Shown here in pieces: positions 16,482-31,600 of a stretch of 64,000 nt of DNA. The stretch's first letter is position 1. Every line of letters starts with the position of its first letter. Made by a program: the position numbers and the translations under genes. The stretch is from positions 54,006,523-54,070,522 of the forward strand of contig NC_056004.1 of the NCBI RefSeq assembly GCF_018446385.1, read 5' to 3'. The notes beneath the pieces are model-generated. The model was not told the origin of the DNA and ran no database searches. It saw only the letters and a program-made list of their open reading frames with translations. The DNA comes from Zingiber officinale (lineage: Eukaryota > Streptophyta > Magnoliopsida > Zingiberales > Zingiberaceae).

Positions 16482-17935
16482 AATACTATAATGAAATGAC
16501 TGAATATAAAGTATATCAGGCCCGCAAGAGTAAACTAGAAGTAGCACGAAGCTGGAGGCGATGGCGCAGAGCCAGAGGGTGGCACAGAGTCGAAGGGTGG
16601 CATGAAGTCGAAGGACGTTATGGAGCCAAAGACGGAGGTGGCAAGGAACTGGAGGGTGGCACAGAGCCAGAATATGATAGTGGCATGTAGGCCGGAATAT
16701 GACAGTGACTCAAAGGCCAAAACACAACAGTGGCATGAAGGCCAAAAATACAACAATGACATTGATACTTCAATCACTAAAAGTGAAAGTCTAAGCTTGG
16801 AAATGTGTCCTAAAACTTAGGTAGAAGTAAGGGAAATGAATAAAGTACCTTATTTCAGTGCAGTAGGAAGTCTAATGTATGCAATATTGTGTACATGACT
16901 AGATATATGTATACAGTCGGTATGGTTAGATATCAAGCAAATCCTGGAAGGGCTCATTGGAGAGTAGTGAAAAAGATTTTTCGATATCTCAAAGTAACTA
17001 TGAACTTCTCTCTGTGTTATAGAGGAAGTGATTTGCAACTTGTGGGATATTCATATGTTGATTGGAGAGGTGATCTGGATAAATACAAATCAACATCATG
17101 TTTTACTTTCTTGCTCAATGGCGAAGTCATTTGTTTGACTAGTAAGAAGAGAGTGGTACTTTCTATCTTGTTGAGAAGAACAAAGAAGGCTATCATCATA
17201 CATCACCAGGTTAAGGGTTGAAACATTATGACATAACATTGATAGTTTGTGATACGTGACTATCATCTCGACTTCGAGTAGTTCGTGGCCTCTTTATAAA
17301 AAAACCTTGTATCCTTCTTTCAGAATTATTGTGAACCCTAGCCATGAACTACTCGAAGTCGAGATGATAGTCACGTATCACAAACTATCAATGTTATGTC
17401 ATAATGTTTCAACCCTTAACCTGGTGATGTATGATGATAGCCTTCTTTGTTCTTCTCAACAAGATAGAAAGTACCACTCTCTTCTTACTAGTCAAACAAA
17501 TGACTTCGCCATTGAGCAAGAAAGTAAAACATGATGTTGATTTGTATTTATCCAGATCACCTCTCCAATCAGCATATGAATATCCCACAAGTTGCAAATC
17601 ACTTCCTCTATAACACAGAGAGAAGTTCATAGTTACTTTGAGATAGAAGTATCAATGTCATTGTTGTATTTTTGGCCTTCATGCCACTGTTGTGTTTTGG
17701 CCTTTGAGTCACTATCATATTCCGGCCTGCATGCCACTATCATATTCTGGCTCTGTGCCACCCTCCAGTTCCCTGCCACCTCTGTCTTTGGCTCCATAAC
17801 ATCCTTCGGCTTCGTGCCACCCTTCGACTCTGTGCCACCCTCTGGCTCTACGCCATCGCCTCCAGCTTCGTGCTGCTTCTAGTTTGCTCTTGCAGGCCTG
17901 ATATACTTTATATTCAGTCATTTCATTATAGTATT
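16482..17935. repeat. 1.45-kb imperfect palindrome (807- and 594-bp arms, 53-bp spacer)
   Basis: The left arm (16482-17288) begins AATACTATAATGAAATGACT; the right arm (17342-17935) ends with its reverse complement. The centre reads ...GAGTAGTTCGTGG / CCATGAACTACTC... around a 53-bp spacer. Arms match closely by eye, except that about 210 bp in the left arm (about 16775-16985) have no partner. Both arms contain a piece of copia RNase H and a run of ~40-bp repeats ('GAGGGTGGCA', 'AATACAACAATGACA'). No TSD was found. The transcript would fold into a very long hairpin. Confidence 0.9.
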
Positions 17936-18437
17936 GTTTATCATTTTCATTTCTATTATTGGAGACTAACTTGAGCGTCGAAGGGTCAAACCAGGATAGT
18001 CTTTGGTCTATTTTCTAACAACATTGCAAGACCATTAACCTGAGACTTTCGGACACCTTCAGTCCTCTCTTTTTTTTTGGGGGGGGGGGGGTCTAGTGAC
18101 TCAGTCAACATAGAAGATAACTTATCATCTCTCCTCCCTTTGGGTCATGACAACTTAGTCTACATTCCAGCCATTTCACTGGTGGTTCACTCTTCTCATC
18201 TTCTGGACGGGATCACATACCAATTAAGAAAGAATAGGGGACATAATCTCCTTTATAAAATAACGTAAATTGAAGTGACAATAGAGTCATTTCGTTGACA
18301 ATTTGGTCCAATTCTATTTGGTTCAAATTGCGTTAGCACAATCCAGTAAGATGAGTTATGGATCCACCTTAGATTACAGATCAAAATGAATAATACCTAT
18401 AAGTTATGTACAACCTATGTATTAAGTGTCCTGTTCC
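17936..18437. other. No gene seen; T9-G13 homopolymer junction
   Basis: I find no coding sequence or complete element. 'ACTTGAGCGTCGAAGGGTC' near 17970 resembles plant LTR sequence, so this is probably more retroelement remnant. At 18070-18091 nine T are followed directly by thirteen G, an unusual homopolymer pair that may be a low-confidence base-call region. Confidence 0.5.
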
Positions 18438-18622
18438 CATGGAGATGCCCAGTTGGTTAGAGAGTGATAGATTTATTATAATGAGATAGAGATCAATTTT
18501 TGACAAACGCATGTTTACGGGAAAAAAATTCCCACTCTCTAGTCATTTAGCGGTCGGCCTGTGATTTACCTCCCTTTACATACTATGGAGATGGATTGTC
18601 AATGACACCTAAAGTGAGTGTA
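18438..18622 (+). mobile_element. tRNA-type SINE remnant
   Basis: A box A-like 'GCCCAGTTGGTTAGAGAGTG' near 18447 and the tail 'GCGGTCGGCCTGTGATTTACCTCC' layout near 18550-18570 recall a plant tRNA-derived SINE. Box B is degenerate and no clear target duplication is visible. Family unassigned. Confidence 0.5.
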
Positions 18623-18874
18623 ATCATCTTTGCTATTATATATTGAGGATCCCAAATACTTAAAAATATTAAAAAATTAAAATATAAAACTATAACAAAT
18701 ACTTTTTAAAATTAAAATATATAAAAATAATACTAATCATAAAATATATTTATTTATAATTTTTAAAATATTATTATAGTTGTTTAGAGAAATTAAATAG
18801 ACAACTATTCCATGGGCTTAAGCTTATGCCAACACATGAGACAATTTGACACGTCAAAAACTAGATGAATCATA

Positions 18875-19075
18875 CTAAGATGGCGTTTAGCTCAATTGAT
18901 TCGACACCCCTAATCCTAATTAATTTTCATTAAAATTATTAAGTTTAGGTCTACATAATTTTCTCGTACATTATAGTAAAAAAGTAATTATACTTATCCC
19001 GTGTGTTATAGTCTGTCCCAAGATTATGTCAAGAAAGATAAATTACGGGGTTAACTTATAGTCGACCATTAAATT
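18875..19075 (+). mobile_element. Possible second SINE remnant
   Basis: 'TGGCGTTTAGCTCAATTG' near 18881 looks like box A of a tRNA-derived element and is followed by 'TAAATTACGGGG' near 19030. Box B and TSD are not recognisable, so this is tentative. Confidence 0.3.
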
Positions 19076-19375
19076 GGCTAATAATTGAAATAATGTAACT
19101 TCTATATCACTTTTAATTAGTACTAGTGATTGTGCACACGCGTTGCATGAGAGATATAAGGGAAATAAAAAATAGTTTTAATTTTTAAGTATTGCCCCTA
19201 CTTTTATTTATTTTAGTGGAACAAAACTCTAATATTTTTACAATTTTATATAATTTAGGGGTACTTACAAAAAATTAAGGTGGGACAGTTGTCCTACCAA
19301 AGCTATATGTGACTCTGCCCCTGATTGCATCTGTAAAATAATACATGAACGCATGTGGATAATGGACTCTCATTC

Positions 19376-19455
19376 ATAAAAAAAATTAATTTAATTTTAT
19401 ATATCAAATATTAAACCAATAAGAATAAATAATATACTTAATTTTAACCAAAAGA
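19376..19455 (-). pseudogene. U2: U2 snRNA 5' fragment, unit 1
   Basis: Read on the minus strand: 'CTTTTGGTTAAAATTAAG', then an ATCTGTTCTTATCAG-like segment, then a GGTTTAATATTTGATAT-like segment, joined directly to an AAATTAATTTTTT run. This corresponds to roughly U2 nt 14-70 plus the Sm-site neighbourhood. It lacks the normal 5' end and any promoter. It lies just downstream, in U2 sense, of the unit-1 main copy. Confidence 0.65.
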
Positions 19456-19469
19456 TTGTCCATGAATTG

Positions 19470-19615
19470 GGTAAAGGTGCGCTAGACCTATACAATAATG
19501 CAATGCTAGGGCAACGTCTGAGAATCTCAACAGCGAGCTATTATAATAAACTTCCTCTTATAAAAAATTAATTTAATATCATAATTGATCTTAGCCAACC
19601 AGCCGAAAAAAGTAT
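19470..19615 (-). pseudogene. U2: U2 snRNA pseudogene, unit 1 main copy
   Basis: The minus strand starts at 19615 with ATACTTTTTTCGGC and continues GTTGGCTAAGATCAA, matching the conserved U2 5' end (ATACCTTTCTCGGCCTTTTGGCTAAGATCAAG, from memory). It then jumps to GATATTAAATTAATTTTTT (the Sm-binding region) and a 3' half ending 'CTAGCGCACC', as plant U2 does. The segment from about nt 32 to nt 95, including the branch-point recognition sequence, is absent. A TATA-like box and a USE-like box lie upstream (19634-19686). It is not expected to work in splicing. Confidence 0.8.
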
Positions 19616-19633
19616 GTTTTCTAATATCCCAGG

Positions 19634-19686
19634 TATTTATAGAAGCTTCTTTACTCATAGTGTTGCCACATATAAGATATGAGACA
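19634..19686 (-). promoter_or_regulatory. Plant snRNA-type promoter remnant, unit 1 (TATA and USE-like box)
   Basis: On the minus strand a USE-like GTCTCATATCTT (19676-19686) precedes TATAAATA (19634-19641), then the U2 start at 19615. Plant U2 genes have USE (RTCCCACATCG) near -70 and TATA near -30. The TATA-to-start gap here is about 7 bp shorter than in unit 3. Confidence 0.6.
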
Positions 19687-20340
19687 AAAGAGAACTCTAG
19701 ATTTATAACTGATTAATGAAAAAATTCTCAATAATACATCACAGCTGAGTATCGAACTCTAGATCTCTGATTGATTAATGAGAAAAATTCCTTATAATAT
19801 ACCATAACTGAGTCTCTAACTCTAAATTACTGATTGATTAATGAGAAAAATTCTCAATAATATACCACAGCTAAGTCATGAACTCTAGATCCTTGATTGA
19901 TGAATTTATGGAAATTACTAATAAACTTTGAAATTATTTTCAGTATAAAAAGAAAAAAAATATTAACGTAATTTCATTTTGAGCTTCACCAAAATTAGTT
20001 AATAAAGGAGACAAATTCTTAATAAAATAGTTTTAATTTTTAAGTATTGCCCCTACTTTTATTTTTTTATAGTGGGGCAGACTCTAATATTTTTATAATT
20101 TTATTTTCTTCTAGTGGTACTTGACCTATAAAAAATAGTTTTAATTTTTAAGTGTAAGGGTTACTTTATTTTTTAGTGGGGCAAGAGTATAAATTTTTTA
20201 TTATTTTATATACTTCTAGGGATATTTAGAAAAAATTGAGGTGGGGTAGTTGCCTCGCCAAAGCTATACATGGCTTCGTCCCTAGTTACGTGTGTAAAAT
20301 AATATATAAACACATACGGGTAATGGACTCTACTTTATAC

Positions 20341-20415
20341 AAAAAATTAATTTAATTATTTATATCAGATATTAAGCTGATAAGAACAAATACTACATTT
20401 AATCTTAACTAAAAT
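20341..20415 (-). pseudogene. U2: U2 snRNA 5' fragment, unit 2
   Basis: The minus strand reads TTAGTTAAGATTAAATG, then TAGTATTTGTTCTTATCAG, then CTTAATATCTGATAT, then the AATTAATTTTTT run. This is the best preserved copy of the U2 branch-point recognition region (GTAGTA) and stem-loop IIa in the array. It has no 5' end and no promoter of its own. Confidence 0.75.
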
Positions 20416-20429
20416 ATCACCCATAAATT

Positions 20430-20571
20430 GAGTAAGGGTGCGCTAGACTCATACAATAATGCAATGCTAGGGTGACGCCGGAGAATCCTAGCAGTAAGCT
20501 ACTGTAATAGACTCCCCCATATAAAAAATTAATTTAATACTTGATCTTAACGAAAAAGCCAAGAAAAGTAT
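20430..20571 (-). pseudogene. U2: U2 snRNA pseudogene, unit 2 main copy
   Basis: The minus strand from 20571 reads ATACTTTTCTTGGC, then TTAAGATCAAGTATTAAATT and AATTTTTT. Its 3' half contains 'GTAGCTTACTGCTAGG', 'TTCTCCGGCGTCACCC' and 'GAGTCTAGCGCACCC', close in layout to a plant U2 3' domain. It shares with the other units the loss of the segment between about nt 32 and the Sm region. A USE-like box is well kept at 20632-20642. Likely non-functional. Confidence 0.8.
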
Positions 20572-20631
20572 AATTTTAAACATCACTGATCAAAGGTATT
20601 AGCTTCTTTGTTCGTAATGTTGCCAATTATA

Positions 20632-20642
20632 AGATGTGAGAC
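20632..20642 (-). promoter_or_regulatory. Upstream sequence element (USE) of unit 2 U2 copy
   Basis: The minus-strand sequence GTCTCACATCT differs at two positions from the plant snRNA USE consensus RTCCCACATCG. It ends 60 bp upstream of the U2 start at 20571, i.e. spans about -61 to -71, the expected position. The TATA box of this unit is degenerate (about 20597-20604). Confidence 0.7.
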
Positions 20643-21120
20643 TAAAGAAAACTCTAGATTTCTAATTTATTAATGAGGAAATTCTTAATAATACGCTACA
20701 TCTGAGTCTCAAATTCTAGATCCTTGATTGATTAATGAGAAAAATTTCCAATAATACGCCGCAGTTGAGTCACAAACTCTAAATCACAGATTGATGCATT
20801 TAAAATTACTAATAAATCTTGAAATTATTTTCGGTATGAAAAAAAAGAACATTAACTTAATTTCATTTTGGGCTTAACTAAAATTAGTTAGTAAAGGGGA
20901 CAGATTCTTAATAAAATAGTTTTCATTTTTAAGTATTGTCCTTACTTTTATTTTTTAAATGGGGCAAACTCTAATATTTTTATAATTTTATATACTTCTA
21001 AGGTTCCTTAAAAAAAAATTGAGGTGGGGTAGTTGCCCCACCAAAGCTATATGTGGCTCCACCCCTGATTGCGTATGTAAAATAATATATGAACCCTTGC
21101 GGATAATGGACTATCCATCA

Positions 21121-21200
21121 TAAAAAAATTAATTTGATTTTTTATATTAGATATTAATCTGATAAAAATAAATACCACATTTAATCTTAACCAAAAGGCC
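21121..21200 (-). pseudogene. U2: U2 snRNA 5' fragment, unit 3
   Basis: The minus strand reads GGCCTTTTGGTTAAGATTAA, then a TGTGGTATTTATTTTTATCA segment and GATTAATATCTAATAT, then the AATTAATTTTTT run. It begins at about U2 nt 12 (GGCCUUUUGGCUAAG), so only the first ~11 nt are missing at the 5' side. Confidence 0.75.
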
Positions 21201-21210
21201 ACCCATAAAT

Positions 21211-21356
21211 TGGATAAGGGTGCGCCAGAGCCATACAATAATACATTACTAGATTGACGCCTGAGAATTCCAGCAATAAGCTACTATAATACTCTCTCTT
21301 ATAAAAAATTAATTTAATATCATATTTGATCTTAGCCAAAAAGCTGAAAAAAGTAT
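21211..21356 (-). pseudogene. U2: U2 snRNA pseudogene, unit 3 main copy
   Basis: The minus strand from 21356 reads ATACTTTTTTCAGC, TTTTTGGCTAAGATCAAA, then TATGATATTAAATTAATT. The 3' half ends 'GGCTCTGGCGCACCC', the normal plant U2 terminal sequence style. The middle segment is absent as in the other units. TATAAATA lies at 21382-21389, with 25 bp between it and the start, a normal snRNA spacing. The USE of this unit has been deleted (about 21410-21420). Confidence 0.8.
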
Positions 21357-22137
21357 GCTTTCTAATATCGTCAATCAAAGGTATTTATAGAAACTTCTCT
21401 GTTTGTAGTATTATCAATTTAGATTTCTAATTGATTAATGAGAAAATTCAAATAATATACAGCTGAGTCTCGAATTCTAGATCCCTAATTAATTAATGAA
21501 AAAAAAAATTCCTAAGCCACAGTTGAGTCTTGAACTCTAGATATTGATTAATGAGAAAAATTCCTAATAATAACTCTAGATCACTGATTGATTAATGAGA
21601 AAAATTCTAATAATATAACACAGCTGAGTCATGAACTCTAGATCCCTGATTGATGTGTTTATGGGAATTACTAATAAACCTTGAAATTATTTTTAGTATA
21701 AAAATAAAATTAAACATTAATGTAATTTTATTTTAGGCTTTACCAAAATTAGTTAGTAAAGGAGACAGATTCTTAATAAAATAGTTTTAATTTTTAAGTA
21801 TTGCCCCTACTTTTATATTTTTTTAGTGGGGCAGACTTTAATATTTTTATAATTTTATATACTTCTAGGAGTACTTGACCTATAGAAAATAGTTTTAATT
21901 TTTAAATATTGCCCCTACTTTTAGTTTTTTAGTGGGGCAAGACTCTAATATTTTTATAATTTTATATATTTCTAAGGGTACTTAAAAATATTTGAGGTGG
22001 GGTAGTTGCCCCACCAAAGCTATATGTGGCTTGCGTGTGTAAAATAATATATGAACGTGTGCGGATAATGGTATGGAAAATGGTGGATGTAAAAATCCAT
22101 AGTCGATCATGTCCTTCAAGTTATGCTACGTCGCTTT

Positions 22138-22310
22138 CTACCACATCGTTTCAAATGAAGTTTTACCATAACATTCCTCTAATATAAAAAAGCACCAGAC
22201 CTATACAATAATACAATACTAGGGTACCACATCGTTTCAAATGAAATTTTACCATAACATTCCTCTAATATAAAAAAAAACACCAGACATATACAATAAT
22301 ACAATGCTAG
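22138..22310 (+). repeat. ~85-bp direct duplication in unit 4
   Basis: Two tandem copies of 'TACCACATCGTTTCAAATGA...TTCCTCTAATATAAAAAA...CAATAATACAATRCTAGGGT' differ at few positions. Each copy has a USE-like TACCACATCG about 31 bp before a TATA-like TAATATAAAA on the plus strand. The second copy runs into the U2 3' half. Confidence 0.7.
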
Positions 22311-22416
22311 GGTGACTTCCGAGAATCCCAGCAGCAATCTACTGTAATAGACTCTTCCTTATAAAAAATTAATTTAATATCATACTTGATCTTAGCAAAA
22401 AAGTTGAGAAAAGTAA
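22280..22416 (-). pseudogene. U2: U2 snRNA pseudogene, unit 4 main copy
   Basis: The minus strand from about 22415 reads TTACTTTTCTCAAC, then TTGCTAAGATCAAGTATGAT and ATTAAATTAATTTTTTATAA. Next come 'GTAGATTGCTGCTGGGATTC' and 'AGCATTGTATTATTGTAT'. It has the same internal deletion as units 1-3. Its 3' end is replaced by a duplicated ~85-bp block (22138-22310), and no separate 5' fragment follows it. Confidence 0.75.
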
Positions 22417-22441
22417 ACTTTCTAACATCGCTGACCCAAAG

Positions 22442-22489
22442 TATTTATAGAAGCTTCTTTGCACGGTTGCGAATTATAAGACATGGGAT
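22442..22489 (-). promoter_or_regulatory. Plant snRNA-type promoter remnant, unit 4 (USE and TATA)
   Basis: On the minus strand ATCCCATGTCT (22479-22489; USE consensus RTCCCACATCG) is followed after about 29 bp by TATAAATA (22442-22449) and then about 25 bp to the U2 start. Plant Pol II snRNA promoters have a USE-TATA gap of a little over 30 bp, so the layout is essentially intact. Confidence 0.7.
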
Positions 22490-23004
22490 TAAAGAGAACT
22501 CTAAATTTCTAATTGATTAATAAGAAAATTCTCAATAATATGTCACAACTGAGTCTTGAACTCTAGATCCTTTATTGATTAATGAGAAAAATTCCCAATA
22601 ATACGCCACAACTGAGTTGCAAACTCTAGATCACTGATTGATTAATGAGAATTTTTTTTAATAATATACCACAACTGAGTTTTGAACTCTAGATTCATGA
22701 TTGTTGCATTTGTAGAAATTACTAATAAACCTTGAAATTATTTTCGATATGAAAAGAAAAAAGAATATTAACGTAATTTTATTTTAGACTTCACTAAAAT
22801 TAGTTAGTAAAGAGGACAGATTCTTAATAAAATAGTAAGATTAATTAAAATTGAATTAGATTTTTCTTTTTGATAGATGGACTTTTCTACTAATTTCTAA
22901 CCATTTAATAAAAAATAAAAAAAATCTCCCTCACCTAAATTTATCATAAAAAAAAATTATCGTATGAACCTCAGTTATTTAAAATCAAATACATATAGAT
23001 CTAA

Positions 23005-25675: not shown

Positions 25676-28600
25676 GTGAGAATTTGTTTTTCAACGCTTT
25701 TTTTCGTCTTCTAATCTTTTAGTGATCTCTACTAAGCATGCCTTTCCTTTTTACCACCCCATTATGACTTCAAGTTGATTTAGTATCTCTATTCTCGTCT
25801 TCGTGTACGTAGCTAACTAGTTTTGACGAGATTTGTTACACCTGTTTGACTTCGACATTTGCTTACACTGTGAGCGCTCGCATTCTCCAGTTACAGTGGT
25901 TTGGCTACTTTGTACGTAGTCTTATTTGTGAATGCTTTATTACCATGGACAGTTTAAAATATATATACATATATTTTCACTTCAGGAATGTGATTTGAAA
26001 CAGCTTGATGTTTATACTGTGTATACTGTCCTGGTGGGATGCTGATTCTATATGTTGTCTTTTTTTCCCCCTTAGTGTTTGGGTAGATGAGGTTGTGTTT
26101 AAGTTAAATTTTGATGCAGAATTATACAAGTATTAGGACAGATAGGTAGGCAATTTGTGACAAAAGATTTATATCACTTAACAATACTGCAACTAGCAAT
26201 TTTATGATTTTACTTTCTACACCAACCTAGTGGGAAAGGATTCATACAGCCGACCCCACTTAGTGGGAAAAGGCTTGGTTGTTGTTGTTGTTGTTGTACT
26301 TTCTACACCAACCTTTGTTACATTAATGGACATTGGTTTTAATTTTCTCCTGGTTTTCATGAAGGTTCGAATATGGAACATGAAATCACTAGAGGGGGGC
26401 TCTGAAAATGATTCTTCAACTCCTAAAGTGCTGGCTACACTGCGGGACCACTTTGGATCAGTTAATTGTGTCAGGTGGGCTAAGCATGGTAGGCTCCTTG
26501 CTTCTGGATCTGATGATCAGGTAATTCTTATTCATGAGAAAAAGCCTGGATCTGGTACAACTGAATTTGGCAGCGGAGAGCCTCCAGATGTAGAAAATTG
26601 GAAAGTTACTATGACATTGAGAGGCCATACTGCAGATGTGGTAATTAGAAAATTTTCCCTTGAGATTTCAATTTTTTATGTTATGAACACCAATATGTTA
26701 TACATTTGTTTATTTAGTCTTGATTATGCTTGTCTAATGGAGTTTCCTATTATGTTTAAAATAGGTAGATCTCAATTGGTCTCCTGATGACTCAACACTA
26801 GCTAGTGGTAGCTTGGATAATACTATTCACATTTGGAGCGTTACCACTGGCATCTGCACTGCTGTACTAAGAGGGCATTCCAGCTTAGTCAAAGGAGTTA
26901 CTTGGGATCCTATTGGTTCTTTCATAGCTAGTCAGTCAGATGACAAAACTGTAATAATATGGAGAACTAGTGATTGGAGCTTGGCACATAAGACAGAAGG
27001 CCACTGGTCAAAGTCGGTGCGTAATGGTCGCTAGTTATTGCAACATTTTTCACAAACCTATATGCTATGTGTTAGTAAAGATGTCATCCTTCACTAGTCT
27101 ATTTATAATACCTTTTCTCTTTCCAGCTTGGTTCTACATTTTTCAGGCGCCTTGGGTGGTCACCGTGTGGCCATTTCATCACTACTACTCATGGCTTTCA
27201 GAAACCTAGACATTCAGCCCCTGTTCTTGAAAGAGGTGAATGGTCTGCTACCTTTGATTTCCTGGGTCATAACGCTCCTGTTATTGTGGTAAAGTTTAAC
27301 CATTCCATGTTCCGGAAACAATTTTCTAATTCCCAAGAAGCAAACTCTGCACCTGCTGGATGGACCAATGGATCTTCTAAGGCTGCATCAAGAGAGCTCC
27401 AACCATATAACGTTATTGCAATTGGAAGTCAGGACCGTACTATAACAGTGTGGACGACGGCAAGTGCCCGCCCCTTATTTGTTGCTAAACACTTCTTTAC
27501 ACAAAGTGTTGTTGACTTATCATGGTAATAGACTTTTTTTTTTACACAAGCTTGCCATTTTTTCTCTTCATGTCTGCTTCATAGCCAACCTAATTTTATC
27601 TCTTTGCTGGCAGGAGCCCAGATGGCTATGCTCTTTTCGCTTGCTCTTTGGATGGCACAGTAGCCTCCTTTCATTTTGAGGTGAAGGAGCTAGGACACAG
27701 GTTAAATGATACTGAGCTGGATGAAATAAAGAGAAGTCGGTATGGAGATGTCAGAGGAAGGCAATCAAACTTAGCAGAAAGTGCTGCACAGTTAGTGCTA
27801 GAAGCAGTCTCAGCTAAGCAAACAGCAAGCAAAAAAGTAGCATCTACTGTTGAGAAAAATCAGATATCTGGAAAAGCTTCCACTGATCCAGTAAATCCAA
27901 TTATTAGCCAACCAATTCACAAGAGTACTGATGCCCAGACTGGAGATGGTAGAAAAAATGGAGGGGCTATAAACGATGGTTCAAATACTATTACATCTGC
28001 GCAGTTATCAAGTCCTCCAAAACAAAGAGAGTATCGCCGTCCTGATGGCCGAAAACGAATTATACCAGAAGCAGTTGGAGTTCCAGCACACCAGGAAAAT
28101 CAGTCTGCAGTTCATGCTCAACTTGCAGAATTCTCTCCCTTGGCCTTGGATCAAACAAAGGACAATCGAAATGTAGTTGCTGATGGTGGGGTAAAAGATG
28201 CTTCCCTAAAGCGTCCATTTAGTGGAAGCTATGAGACACACAGCTATTCTGACAAGCTTAACAACTGTGGATCTAAGGAGCGTTCTGGAATCACTGCAAG
28301 AGCTAACATCACTGAAAGTCTTCTTATCGAGAAAACACCAGTTCTGACTAGCACTGATGGAAGGGCTAATGTAGAACATATAGGGTGTATAGGCATGCCA
28401 AGTTTTCTATCAACCTGCAATTCTCTTTCAATTCGAGTATTTAATAAGAAAAATACTGAAGACAGTTTACCAATCTGCCTGGAAGCAAAGCCTGTTGAGC
28501 ATTCTGCCCATGACATGATTGGTGTTGGTAATGCATTTTCCACTAAAGAAACTGAAATAAGTTGCACACAAGGATCTGAAACTCTGTGGTCTGATCGCAT

Positions 28601-31600
28601 ATCTGGAAAAGTCACTGTTTTAGCTGGAAATGCCAATTTTTGGGCTGTTGGTTGTGATGATGGTTGCCTACAGGTACACAAAAAATCACTTTTATATTAA
28701 TGCAAAACTAATCTAATATATGCCAATATATGGGATCCTAACCCTCTTTTATAGATTGATAACATGACTTATTTTTCGTAAAATATTTTTTTTTTGACAG
28801 TCTTTTCTAAAAAACTAAACCTTTTATAGAAACTGGCAAACTCTATTATATTCTATAATTTACGGAATCATAATCCCATAAATCATGGAATATTTTCAAT
28901 CTTATTTTTAGGGATATTCATGGTTATAAATTAGTCTGTTAATGATCTCATAAATGAATCGGATGTTCGTCAACAAGCTTGGTGTTTAGTTGGATAAAAC
29001 TTGTTTAAGTTCATTCAATAGGAAAACAATATAAAAATAAACAAACTCGAATACTAGTAAGTTTGGTTCATTAATGTTCATGAATAGTTTATGAATAAAT
29101 TTATTTATTAATTTGTGTGAAATTTAATTGTAAATTTACTTCTTAATTTTTTATTTAAATAGATGTAATTTATAACTATAATTTAAATTATTTATAATAT
29201 GCTAAAATAATAGAATACTATAAGTTTCAAGAATTAGATAAAAGTGTAGCCTAGTTTATAAATAAAACAAAGCTATTAGTTAAGCTTGATAATATTTTTA
29301 ATAAATAAGCTTAAACAAGATAAGTAAATAAATAAGTTTCATCATAGCTAAGCTCGACTTTGATCCTTTAATCCCTAGTTACAAAATCATGTTTCTGGAC
29401 CCTTTCCCTCAAGCTAGTAAATAAATGTTTATCATTTCTAGCCAAGGTTCTAAAATTCGCTAGACTCTAGTCGGGCGGCAGACCAGCGCCTGGGCGGCCT
29501 AGGCGGATTCCTCGGTATCCCTTGATTCATGTGGACTGTGGACAATGTCAGATGCAAATCTAAATGTTGTTTTAAACAATTTCATAGCAATGGAGATCTA
29601 TGTATTGTGAACAGTAGAACATGCAGTAAATTATCATAATCATGTAGTAAACAGTAGAACATATATCCAACTTGAATTTTAAAACCTTGCTATAAGCTAA
29701 AACAACTCTAGTGGTGGAAAACATTATAAAATAGTAGCAATAGTTCAATTCAAGATTACAATGCATTGTGAACCAGTAACCACTAAGCAAAATATAATTG
29801 TTGAATAACATAAATCATGTCTTAACAAAATGAGTTCAAAATTACACAACTAATAATATCTCATAGACTCATATTTATTCTACTTCTTCTTCTCCATAAT
29901 TTTCAATAACTTGTTCTTCATCTGACACAAACTCAATATCATTATTGTGATCCTCGTCTTCTTCTTCGGATTCAAAATCATCTTCATGAAGTTCTCTCAC
30001 TCTAGAGCTTCTTCGGGTTGTAGATTTTCATCTGCTCCACTTGCTTCATCAACCATTTGCCAAGTGAGCCCGGAACCTAGTTCAACTTCATTATCTTCCC
30101 CACCATCCACAATCCAACCTTGTGCATTTGAAGCATCTTTTGCAAGAAGAACATCTACATTCCTTTCTTTTTCTCGTTTTTGTTTGTTCAACAATCTAGC
30201 ATTAAATTGGACAAATACTAGATTTTTCAACCTGTTGGCATCCAACCTATTTCTTTTATTTGTATGAATCTTAAAAAACGAGAGAAAGTAATATATTATA
30301 GTTAGTAACTTGAATATAAAAGTTAAAACAAATTAAAGACTTAAAGCCTAAAGTTTACCCCTTCAAATGCACTCCAATTTCTTTCACATCCAGATGAACT
30401 TGTAGTTAATGAAAGTATCCTCAATGTCACCCTTAGCAAGTTAGGTGTGTGAGCACCGTATGTACTCCACCATGCACATGGATCAAATGTATCATCATTT
30501 TTTTCACATGCTTTTGCTTCCAATGTTTTTCCAAATAACCCTATCTTATCTCTATATTTTGGAAATTCTTTGTTAATAATTGTATCTTGTAGATCTAACT
30601 CATTGGCATGCAAAGTTTCCATGCATTCAAAAATCCCCGTCGCGACCTCCTCATAAAGAGCAATAGAACTATCTTTATAGTAAAAATAAGGATTCAACAA
30701 AAAAGCAGTGGTATGCAATGATGTATCAAGTCTATCCTTCATTTTTGACTCAATAATGACTATTATAGGTTGATAATTTGATTCCACGTTGTTCAAAGCC
30801 ACCTTGATATCTTCTTTAGCTTGAAGAAGCTCCCCATATAGAAACCCCATCGACGGCTTTCTATCTCCATCTACCAATCGAAGAACTCTTACCAAAGGAG
30901 CAAATATTGTCAAACAAAGTGTCACACCATTCCAAAAACTCATGCTCATCACTATAGAGTAAGCCAATTTTCCTTTGTTTGTTTTTGACCATTTACATTT
31001 CTCCCACATATCACTTGTAAACATGACCCTTAAACTAGTTTTTTTTTCAATCAAACTTTGCAATGTGAGGAAATTTGATGCAAATCTGGTTACTCCTGGT
31101 CGGACTATGTCTCTCTTCTTCGTGAAACTTCTCATCAATGACAAAGTCTTATGGTGAGCATAGATGAAAATGGTAAAAGACTTGGATTGCTCAATAACCT
31201 TTTTATATCGTGGAAGTTTGTCAATATTTTCAAGCATGAGATTAACCGTGTGAGTTGCACATGAACTCAAAAAAATCTCAGGTCGTTTTTCTCTTATCAA
31301 TTTAGCTGCAGCCATATTGTTGGTGACATTGCCTGTTAGAATCTGAATAATATTCTGAGCTCATACTTGTTCAACACACTTGTCAACATACTCAAAAATA
31401 AGTTCAGCTGTATGTGCTTCGTCTGAAGACTCCTTAGACTCTAAAAATGTAGTACCCTCCTTGCAATTAACACACAAATTTAAGATGTTTCTTTTTCTAT
31501 CACTCCATGCATCTGTCATGATCGAGCATCCATTCTTCTTCATGTTTCTTCAGCAATTATTTTGTTCTTTCAACTTCGGCTTTCAATAATGACTCCCTAA

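Follow-up and report, generated by a model that had tools for sequence, protein, structure and literature searches.

Helitrons are already known to capture genes and promoters, and the closest described counterpart of the locus reported here comes from bats, where Helraiser and HelibatN3 elements, bounded by TC and CTAG and inserted between A and T, have amplified a captured NUBPL promoter genome-wide (PMC4778049). What was captured there is a protein-gene promoter, in an element reported for the way it affects host transcripts. Here we describe a Helitron family of ginger (Zingiber officinale) that has captured a U2 small nuclear RNA (snRNA) gene together with its promoter, and which is represented in the 64,000-nucleotide stretch analysed (the window; C19:54006523-54070522, where C-numbers denote contigs of the 3.09-Gb, 211-contig assembly) by what we read as a multi-unit non-autonomous element. 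Contrasting with the bat case, the ginger snRNA promoter also heads the coding elements, upstream of their own RepHel gene; it is this position, together with the U2 cargo and its promoter, that is unusual.

Three further systems share individual features with the ginger family. The trans-species MIRNA loci of Cuscuta, as presented in a commentary (PMC10226582), likewise combine an snRNA-type upstream sequence element (USE) with non-snRNA transcripts; they are small RNA loci with Pol III-like features, the available text of the commentary mentions no transposon, and, unlike these loci, the ginger Helitron has a USE-TATA spacing that fits U2 genes of the same genome. In the Arabidopsis reporter pU2::pre-U2m-GUS, a U2 promoter and body with a broken 3'-box stand upstream of a reading frame, an engineered design intended for GUS accumulation for which the accessible text reports GUS activity (PMC5079582); the ginger Helitron has the same layout and looks like its natural counterpart, so that the mechanism discussed below is proposed by analogy with it. 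Finally, DNA transposons that target multicopy small RNA genes also link transposons with snRNA genes, with the difference that, as far as the available text describes them, they insert into such genes (PMC3706591), whereas the ginger Helitron contains one. Among literature titles and abstract openings, a search with subscription papers and repeat libraries outside its scope, we found no description of a U2-carrying Helitron.

Termini, insertion sites and dispersal

Flanks of the family copies reveal common outer ends beyond the repeated unit, TCTTACTATTTTATTAAGAAT at the 5' side and CACGCAACGCGTG...CTAG at the 3' side, which conform to the 5' TC and 3' CTRR of Helitrons. The window element itself starts with TC at 22840 and ends with CTAG, with a host A before it and a host T after it (Table 1). 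Of 19 flank rows, we set aside four array copies on L031-L033 as well as L047, for which the ends were unclear, leaving 14 single copies with ends set by eye, three of them probable alleles of others. Among these 14, the element starts with TC in 10, the four others adjoining TA repeats, and is preceded by A in 13; CTAG followed by T closes 12, CTCG followed by T closes one, and one lacks the 3' end. The consensus built from 11 copies measures 969 bp, and because pairwise identity is 0.78-0.89 (mean 0.82), the non-autonomous family must be old.

That the family inserts between A and T and duplicates no target sequence is corroborated by an empty site, available for one element and its allele only. 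This single-unit element (L040, allele L041) lies inside a repeat, and its joined flanks match all of the best 40 of 3469 candidates at 91-93% over the join; three retrieved unoccupied copies align across the join with no duplication. A subterminal 3' hairpin is predicted at -6.9 kcal/mol for the consensus and -5.8 kcal/mol for a coding copy.

The ginger assembly is haplotype-resolved, with 11 pairs forming 22 pseudochromosomes (PMC8342452), and all genome counts given here span both haplotypes. When the whole array was used as query, the best 40 of 4337 candidates gave 82 matched stretches on many chromosomes, many stopping at common unit edges. With at most one mismatch, the 5' end pattern occurs at 1429 places (695+734; control 1, 0+1); the 3' end pattern occurs at 118 (62+56; control 0), the USE-TATA pattern at 366 (177+189; control 0), and the joint left by the deletion within U2 in 153 exact copies in both haplotypes (73+80; control 0). 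Since diverged copies escape exact or near-exact matching, these counts are lower bounds. Of eight 5' ends also picked by hand, none of them near a listed exact deletion joint, six carry the U2 block, two of the six (L068 and L069) probably being alleles. These two (C7:52586767 and C8:46308367) are a compact derivative of about 650 bp, made of the 5' end, both U2 pieces and the 3' end; the 63-bp repeats and hAT-like fragment of the window units are missing from it, and this layout is possibly a simpler, older form.

The captured U2 gene and its promoter

The presence of U2 sequence was assessed with the Rfam covariance model RF00004 on the minus strand, a search that had been proposed by the sequence-only reading of the window, and three of the four units score above the gathering score of 46 (Table 1), contrary to the absence of any above-threshold hit that this reading had named as its refutation. 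On the sense strand of the consensus, the USE GTCCCACATCT occupies positions 353-363, the TATAAATA box 397-404, and the U2 body 430-570, lacking about nucleotides (nt) 32-84. A second U2 piece, which contains the branch-point recognition region, follows at 588-684; in unit 1 its covariance match (E 0.1) is weak by itself, the assignment there resting on identity to the consensus. Compared with the consensus, unit 3 has no USE, and the TATAAATA box of unit 2 is damaged (20597-20600).

The spacing of the promoter elements was compared with five real ginger U2 genes taken from the best 46 scored U2 hits (143.8-171 bits). The consensus and each of the four coding copies described below have 33 nt between USE and TATA box, against 30-32 nt in the real genes, and the distance from TATA box to +1 is 33 nt in the consensus and three of four coding copies (the copy on C19, L059, is unmatched), against 33-34 nt. 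The strongest genomic U2 hits form clusters, at C3:22.5-23.3 Mb, C4:18.7-19.2 Mb, C17:17.84-17.87 Mb and on C187, a small contig holding 15 of the best 46. We regard capture of a U2 gene with its promoter as established.

According to the accessible parts of two reports, plant U2 transcription depends on USE and TATA box, and a 3'-box, CA(N)3-10AGTNNAA, guides 3'-end formation (PMC545797, PMC5079582); the USE as printed in the former is one C shorter than the ginger form. The 3'-box occurs in four of the five real ginger U2 genes, and in neither the consensus nor any of the four coding copies. Connelly and Filipowicz (1993) reportedly worked on plant snRNA promoters and messenger RNA (mRNA) 3' ends.

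RepHel-coding relatives

The family includes coding members with the same ends. A genome search with the PF14214 profile gave 28 matches, two of the strongest being followed, in the same orientation, by a listed 3' terminus of the family type. One member, on C7 (L056; C7:49473123-49478694), is 5572 bp long and encodes a 962-amino-acid (aa) open reading frame (ORF), free of stops and gaps, with Helitron_like_N and PIF1 domains (PF14214 4.5e-44, PIF1 6.9e-71). It matches the consensus at positions 1-144 (89%), across the USE-TATA-U2 block (339-562; 78%) and at the 3' end (26/27), and 331 nt separate the U2 +1 from the presumed RepHel start codon, whose placement is a judgement. Copies on C2, C3 and C19 share this 5' block and this 3' end, so that in all four of the read loci that keep a 5' end the U2 block stands between the 5' terminus and RepHel, in the direction of RepHel. 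The ORFs on C2, C3 and C19 carry stops or gaps and are 98-99% identical to that on C7, with pairwise synonymous divergence (dS) of 0.020-0.037 and a nonsynonymous-to-synonymous ratio (dN/dS) of 0.36-0.55; given this identity, the movement of the coding lineage was recent and took place when it already had the U2 promoter. The C19 copy starts with TA instead of TC, differs by one base in the USE and is the one unmatched at the +1 motif. In L058, the locus of the C3 copy, a second USE-TATA copy at about 148-264 (C3:72261347) directly precedes the 5' end of the element, and we attribute this adjoining promoter copy to another family member that abuts it.

A DNA search found eight RepHel places, of which these four have the block, two (C11 and C12) lack the 5' part and two (C177 and C15) lie outside the comparison. 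The RepHel copies at C11:30801731-30804455 and C12:36006968-36018161 are about 88-92% like that on C7, and in the 3.5 kb on their 5' side nothing matches the first 1.47 kb of the C7 element; they may be truncated, or may belong to a sister lineage with a different leader, and with the 5' part missing they are uninformative about the U2 block.

Aligning the majority sequence of the coding copies with the non-autonomous consensus suggests that promoter and RNA body have had different fates. All 19 USE and TATA positions are identical, compared with 44 of 58 in the two spacers (Fisher p 0.016) and 107 of 136 in the U2 body, which also has six gapped positions (p 0.025 against USE and TATA). The U2 relic of the coding copies is the more decayed one: at the 29 differing body sites, the majority sequence of the real U2 genes agrees with the non-autonomous copies 22 times, with the coding copies three times and with neither four times, and over the whole body it is identical to the non-autonomous consensus in 110 of 141 positions, as against 89 of 136 for the coding majority. 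From these alignments, the coding lineage appears to have let its RNA body decay while retaining the promoter.

Multi-unit elements and other modules

The window element consists of four tandem units (Table 1), each with a minus-strand U2 relic and the first three with a second U2 piece, as the sequence-only reading had recognized. Its unit size of 0.85-1.05 kb agrees well with the measured 0.87-1.06 kb (865-1055 bp), and of the borders it had placed at 19165-22840 the right one is exact, the left one having to move to the Helitron 3' end at 19123. Unit 4 alone has the true 5' terminus, and there a 120-bp foreign filler replaces the expected second U2 piece. An allele of the array lies on C20, matching window 17636-22233 at 93.7% and 22225-23004 at 96.0%. 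Its unit 4 harbours a 3471-bp insertion (L049 5354-8824, equal to C20:47477353-47480823) that ends in TG...CA and is accompanied by a duplication of 5 bp (ACATC), in the manner of a long terminal repeat (LTR) retroelement.

Table 1. Features of the window element, in window coordinates
Feature	Position	Strand	Basis
Whole multi-unit non-autonomous Helitron	19123-22840	-	sequence, unit map, termini common with single copies
Helitron 5' terminus TCTTACTATTTTATTAAGAAT, A before	22820-22840	-	1429 genome places at <=1 mismatch, control 1
Helitron 3' terminus with CTAG 19126-19123; hairpin sequence, decayed in the window copy, 19137-19149	19123-19149	-	sequence, folding
Unit 1, 867 bp	19165-20031	-	map against family consensus
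Unit 2, 889 bp; extra partial duplication of ~100 bp (20024-20122) at 3' side	20032-20920	-	map against family consensus
Unit 3, 865 bp	20921-21785	-	map against family consensus
Unit 4, 1055 bp; extra partial duplication 21778-21876	21786-22840	-	map against family consensus
Joint between units, ACTATTTT microhomology linking consensus 867-874 with 5-12	20024-20031, 20913-20920, 21778-21785	-	unit map, genome pattern count
U2 relic, unit 1; fuses ~U2 nt 1-31 with ~85-192 and lacks the branch-point and stem II region	19472-19615	-	RF00004 61.6 bits
U2 relic, unit 2	20433-20571	-	RF00004 57.0 bits
U2 relic, unit 3	21215-21356	-	RF00004 59.8 bits
U2 relic, unit 4, 3' side truncated by filler	22273-22416	-	RF00004 39.5 bits (E 1.2e-5), below gathering score
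Second U2 piece, unit 1; by eye, a fusion of ~U2 nt 15-66 with 89-125	19359-19457	-	82/97 as consensus; RF00004 23.1 bits
Second U2 piece, unit 2	20320-20418	-	87/97 as consensus; RF00004 45.8 bits
Second U2 piece, unit 3	21103-21200	-	83/97 as consensus; RF00004 31.7 bits
USE-type snRNA promoter element (family consensus GTCCCACATCT)	19675-19685 (unit 1, 9/11), 20632-20642 (unit 2, 10/11), 22479-22489 (unit 4, 8/11)	-	unit map
TATAAATA (TATA) box	19634-19641 (unit 1), 21382-21389, 22442-22449	-	unit map
63-bp tandem sub-repeats	19692-19905 (unit 1), 20665-20785, 22496-22703	-	repeat period, unit map
Fragment with putative hAT-like end (CAGGGGCGGAGCC in consensus)	19189-19323, 20152-20284, 20933-21067, 21906-22031	-	unit map
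120-bp filler from unrelated low-copy genomic repeat; partly repeated 22225-22277	22072-22191	+	genome search

All three joints of the window array consist of ACTATTTT, an 8-bp sequence present twice in the 969-bp consensus, at 5-12 and 867-874. The joint pattern, with at most one mismatch, occurs 15 times in the genome (control 3): twice each on C1, C13 and C14, once each on C15, C16 and C22, and three times each on C19 and C20. If the single C22 match, which is within the control level, is chance, the non-allelic array loci number about four. A tree of 41 units places the window units beside their C20 alleles (support 1.0). In it, unit 2 of the window clusters with a unit from C1 (0.90), these two cluster with one from C15/C16 (0.96), and a different C15/C16 unit is the partner of window unit 3 (0.85); of the small clades with support that were listed (at most six tips), none joins two units of one array alone. 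Because units of different arrays group together, concatemers were probably copied to new loci as such, which is consistent with the circular intermediates reported for Helraiser in the accessible part of that study (PMC4778049).

As for the remaining modules, the 'fixed set of non-U2 modules' of the sequence-only reading resolves into the Helitron terminal regions and a block of sub-repeats, with a period of 63 bp instead of about 70 bp (in unit 3, copies of the motif lie at about 21420-21644), together with a fragment whose CAGGGGCGGAGCC block is a putative hAT-like end. hAT transposons are marked by paired terminal inverted repeats and an 8-bp target duplication; here a single end-like fragment was seen, whose motif CAGGGGCGGAGCCA is enriched in the genome (109 occurrences, control 3). 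The filler has 17 genome matches, four being the window array and its allele and 13 lying elsewhere; four of its relatives can be aligned with one another well past the block and match nothing in Rfam at E 0.1. On the plus strand, a USE-like TACCACATCG that is followed after about 33 nt by ATATAAAA (22139 and 22225) was considered as a second snRNA promoter and rejected as a chance pair, because the block is a piece of this unrelated repeat. In a plasmid collection nothing matched the window feature, as expected for a plant. Beyond the element, window 26197-28700 (+) contains ORFs with WD40-like text, which presumably resemble the histone chaperone HIRA, and window 30341-31360 (-) a 339-aa ORF that we take to resemble the C-terminal part of a hAT-type transposase.

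Discussion

Our analysis leads us to read the window feature, with a probability of roughly 0.8, as a multi-unit non-autonomous Helitron whose ancestor captured a U2 gene with its promoter, whose RepHel-coding relatives retain that promoter and whose small derivatives spread through the genome. A Helitron ancestor took up a U2 gene including its USE and TATA box at U2 spacing, and in the model that we find most likely the captured promoter, presumed active and freed of the 3'-box, would have come to drive RepHel, with the U2 body reduced to part of the 5' leader. Small derivatives would then have lost RepHel while keeping the ends and the U2 block, gained the second U2 piece, the 63-bp repeats and the hAT-like fragment, and been mobilized in trans; a few may have turned multi-unit through the ACTATTTT microhomology, and these concatemers were then probably themselves copied to new loci. 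By analogy with the Arabidopsis reporter, co-option of the captured promoter for RepHel transcription is likely. The more specific proposal, that the autonomous lineage built its RepHel promoter from a U2 gene, with a broken U2 in the mRNA leader, that loss of the 3'-box was the switch to an mRNA promoter, and that hundreds of derivatives scatter snRNA-type promoters, is one that we advance tentatively, at a little short of even odds, from comparison of the sequences.

The captured U2 piece could instead be a neutral hitch-hiker with no part in RepHel transcription, which we consider a real possibility while leaning away from it. Helitrons capture gene pieces, as the available portion of the Helraiser report documents (PMC4778049), and in single copies the USE is not exceptionally conserved. 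Against this stand its presence in all four of the coding copies read that keep a 5' end, placed between terminus and RepHel and in RepHel orientation, the identity of USE and TATA box across the two lineages while the U2 body decayed in the coding one, and the loss of the 3'-box. Alternatively, the relics might be functional variant U2 genes serving as decoy or specialized snRNAs, in line with their U2-like promoter spacing, present in the consensus and coding copies and partly decayed in the window, and with a partly retained stem-loop I and 3' stems. This is highly improbable: the main copy has no full-length body, lacking the branch-point recognition and stem II region (about nt 32-84), the consensus has no 3'-box, and the window main copies score 39.5-61.6 bits against 143.8-171 for the best genome U2 hits.

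The sequence-only reading had wavered between a 'U2-seeded satellite' and a 'mobile unit that captured a U2 gene', and it is the latter that prevails, as a Helitron. A satellite or local gene cluster grown by unequal crossing-over would explain why tandem units with U2 pieces exist, and is scarcely credible in the light of the genome-wide search that reading had proposed, which found the unit dispersed, not local. Copies do not lie chiefly in tandem arrays: 14 of the 19 flank rows are single dispersed elements with common Helitron ends, the joint pattern is confined to four non-allelic loci and a chance-level match, none of the listed small clades with support consists of same-array units alone, and the empty site of a single-unit member, taken with the dispersal, strongly disfavours this origin. 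The window array is thus neither a satellite nor a functional U2 cluster. Within the Helitron reading, the multi-unit structure could have arisen separately at each locus by recombination between ACTATTTT repeats with no copying of concatemers; recurrence would be easy because the 8-bp match is inherent in the family consensus. We consider this unlikely given the supported grouping of units across arrays (0.85-0.96) and given that the C15/C16 arrays show, by eye, an edge of the partial duplication like that in the window.

Several observations weigh against the Helitron reading or against use of its promoter. The host bases after the L040 join read TCTT, the same as the Helitron 5' end, so that, with TCTT on both sides, the cut carries a 4-base ambiguity and was placed by comparison with the family ends; the best 40 matches scored were all taken up by L040, so that none fell to the three further elements queried alongside (L034, L035 and L039). 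The 3' hairpin is equalled by 15 (consensus) and 13 (coding copy) of 200 shuffles (z -1.5 and -1.7), and in the window copy it has decayed to -2.1 kcal/mol. Two of the eight sampled 5' ends lack the U2 block. The C7 coding element has no Rfam U2 match at E 0.01, and its U2 homology therefore rests on alignment to the family consensus; an alternative promoter may lie inside its 331-nt leader, and the leaders read come from the PF14214 loci on C7, C2, C3, C19, C11 and C12, the other loci being more decayed. The promoter constraint test (p 0.016) draws on a small sample of 19 motif positions, and in single non-autonomous copies the USE is not better kept (0.858, against 0.87-0.90 for other blocks and 0.989 for the TATA box), which is expected if only coding copies require the USE, yet lends no support. 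Lastly, the CAANTC motif given for Arabidopsis U2 at -6 to -1 in the accessible part of one report (PMC545797) is not retained in the Helitron alignment.

The finding bears on both genome annotation and transposon biology. U2 covariance hits in plants can be transposon-borne relics, as the exact copies of the deletion joint across two haplotypes illustrate. If the preferred reading is true, a Helitron whose own transposition gene lies downstream of a captured snRNA promoter would have found a new way to secure its transcription, and the switch of an RNA polymerase II (Pol II) snRNA promoter to mRNA output would become testable in a natural system.

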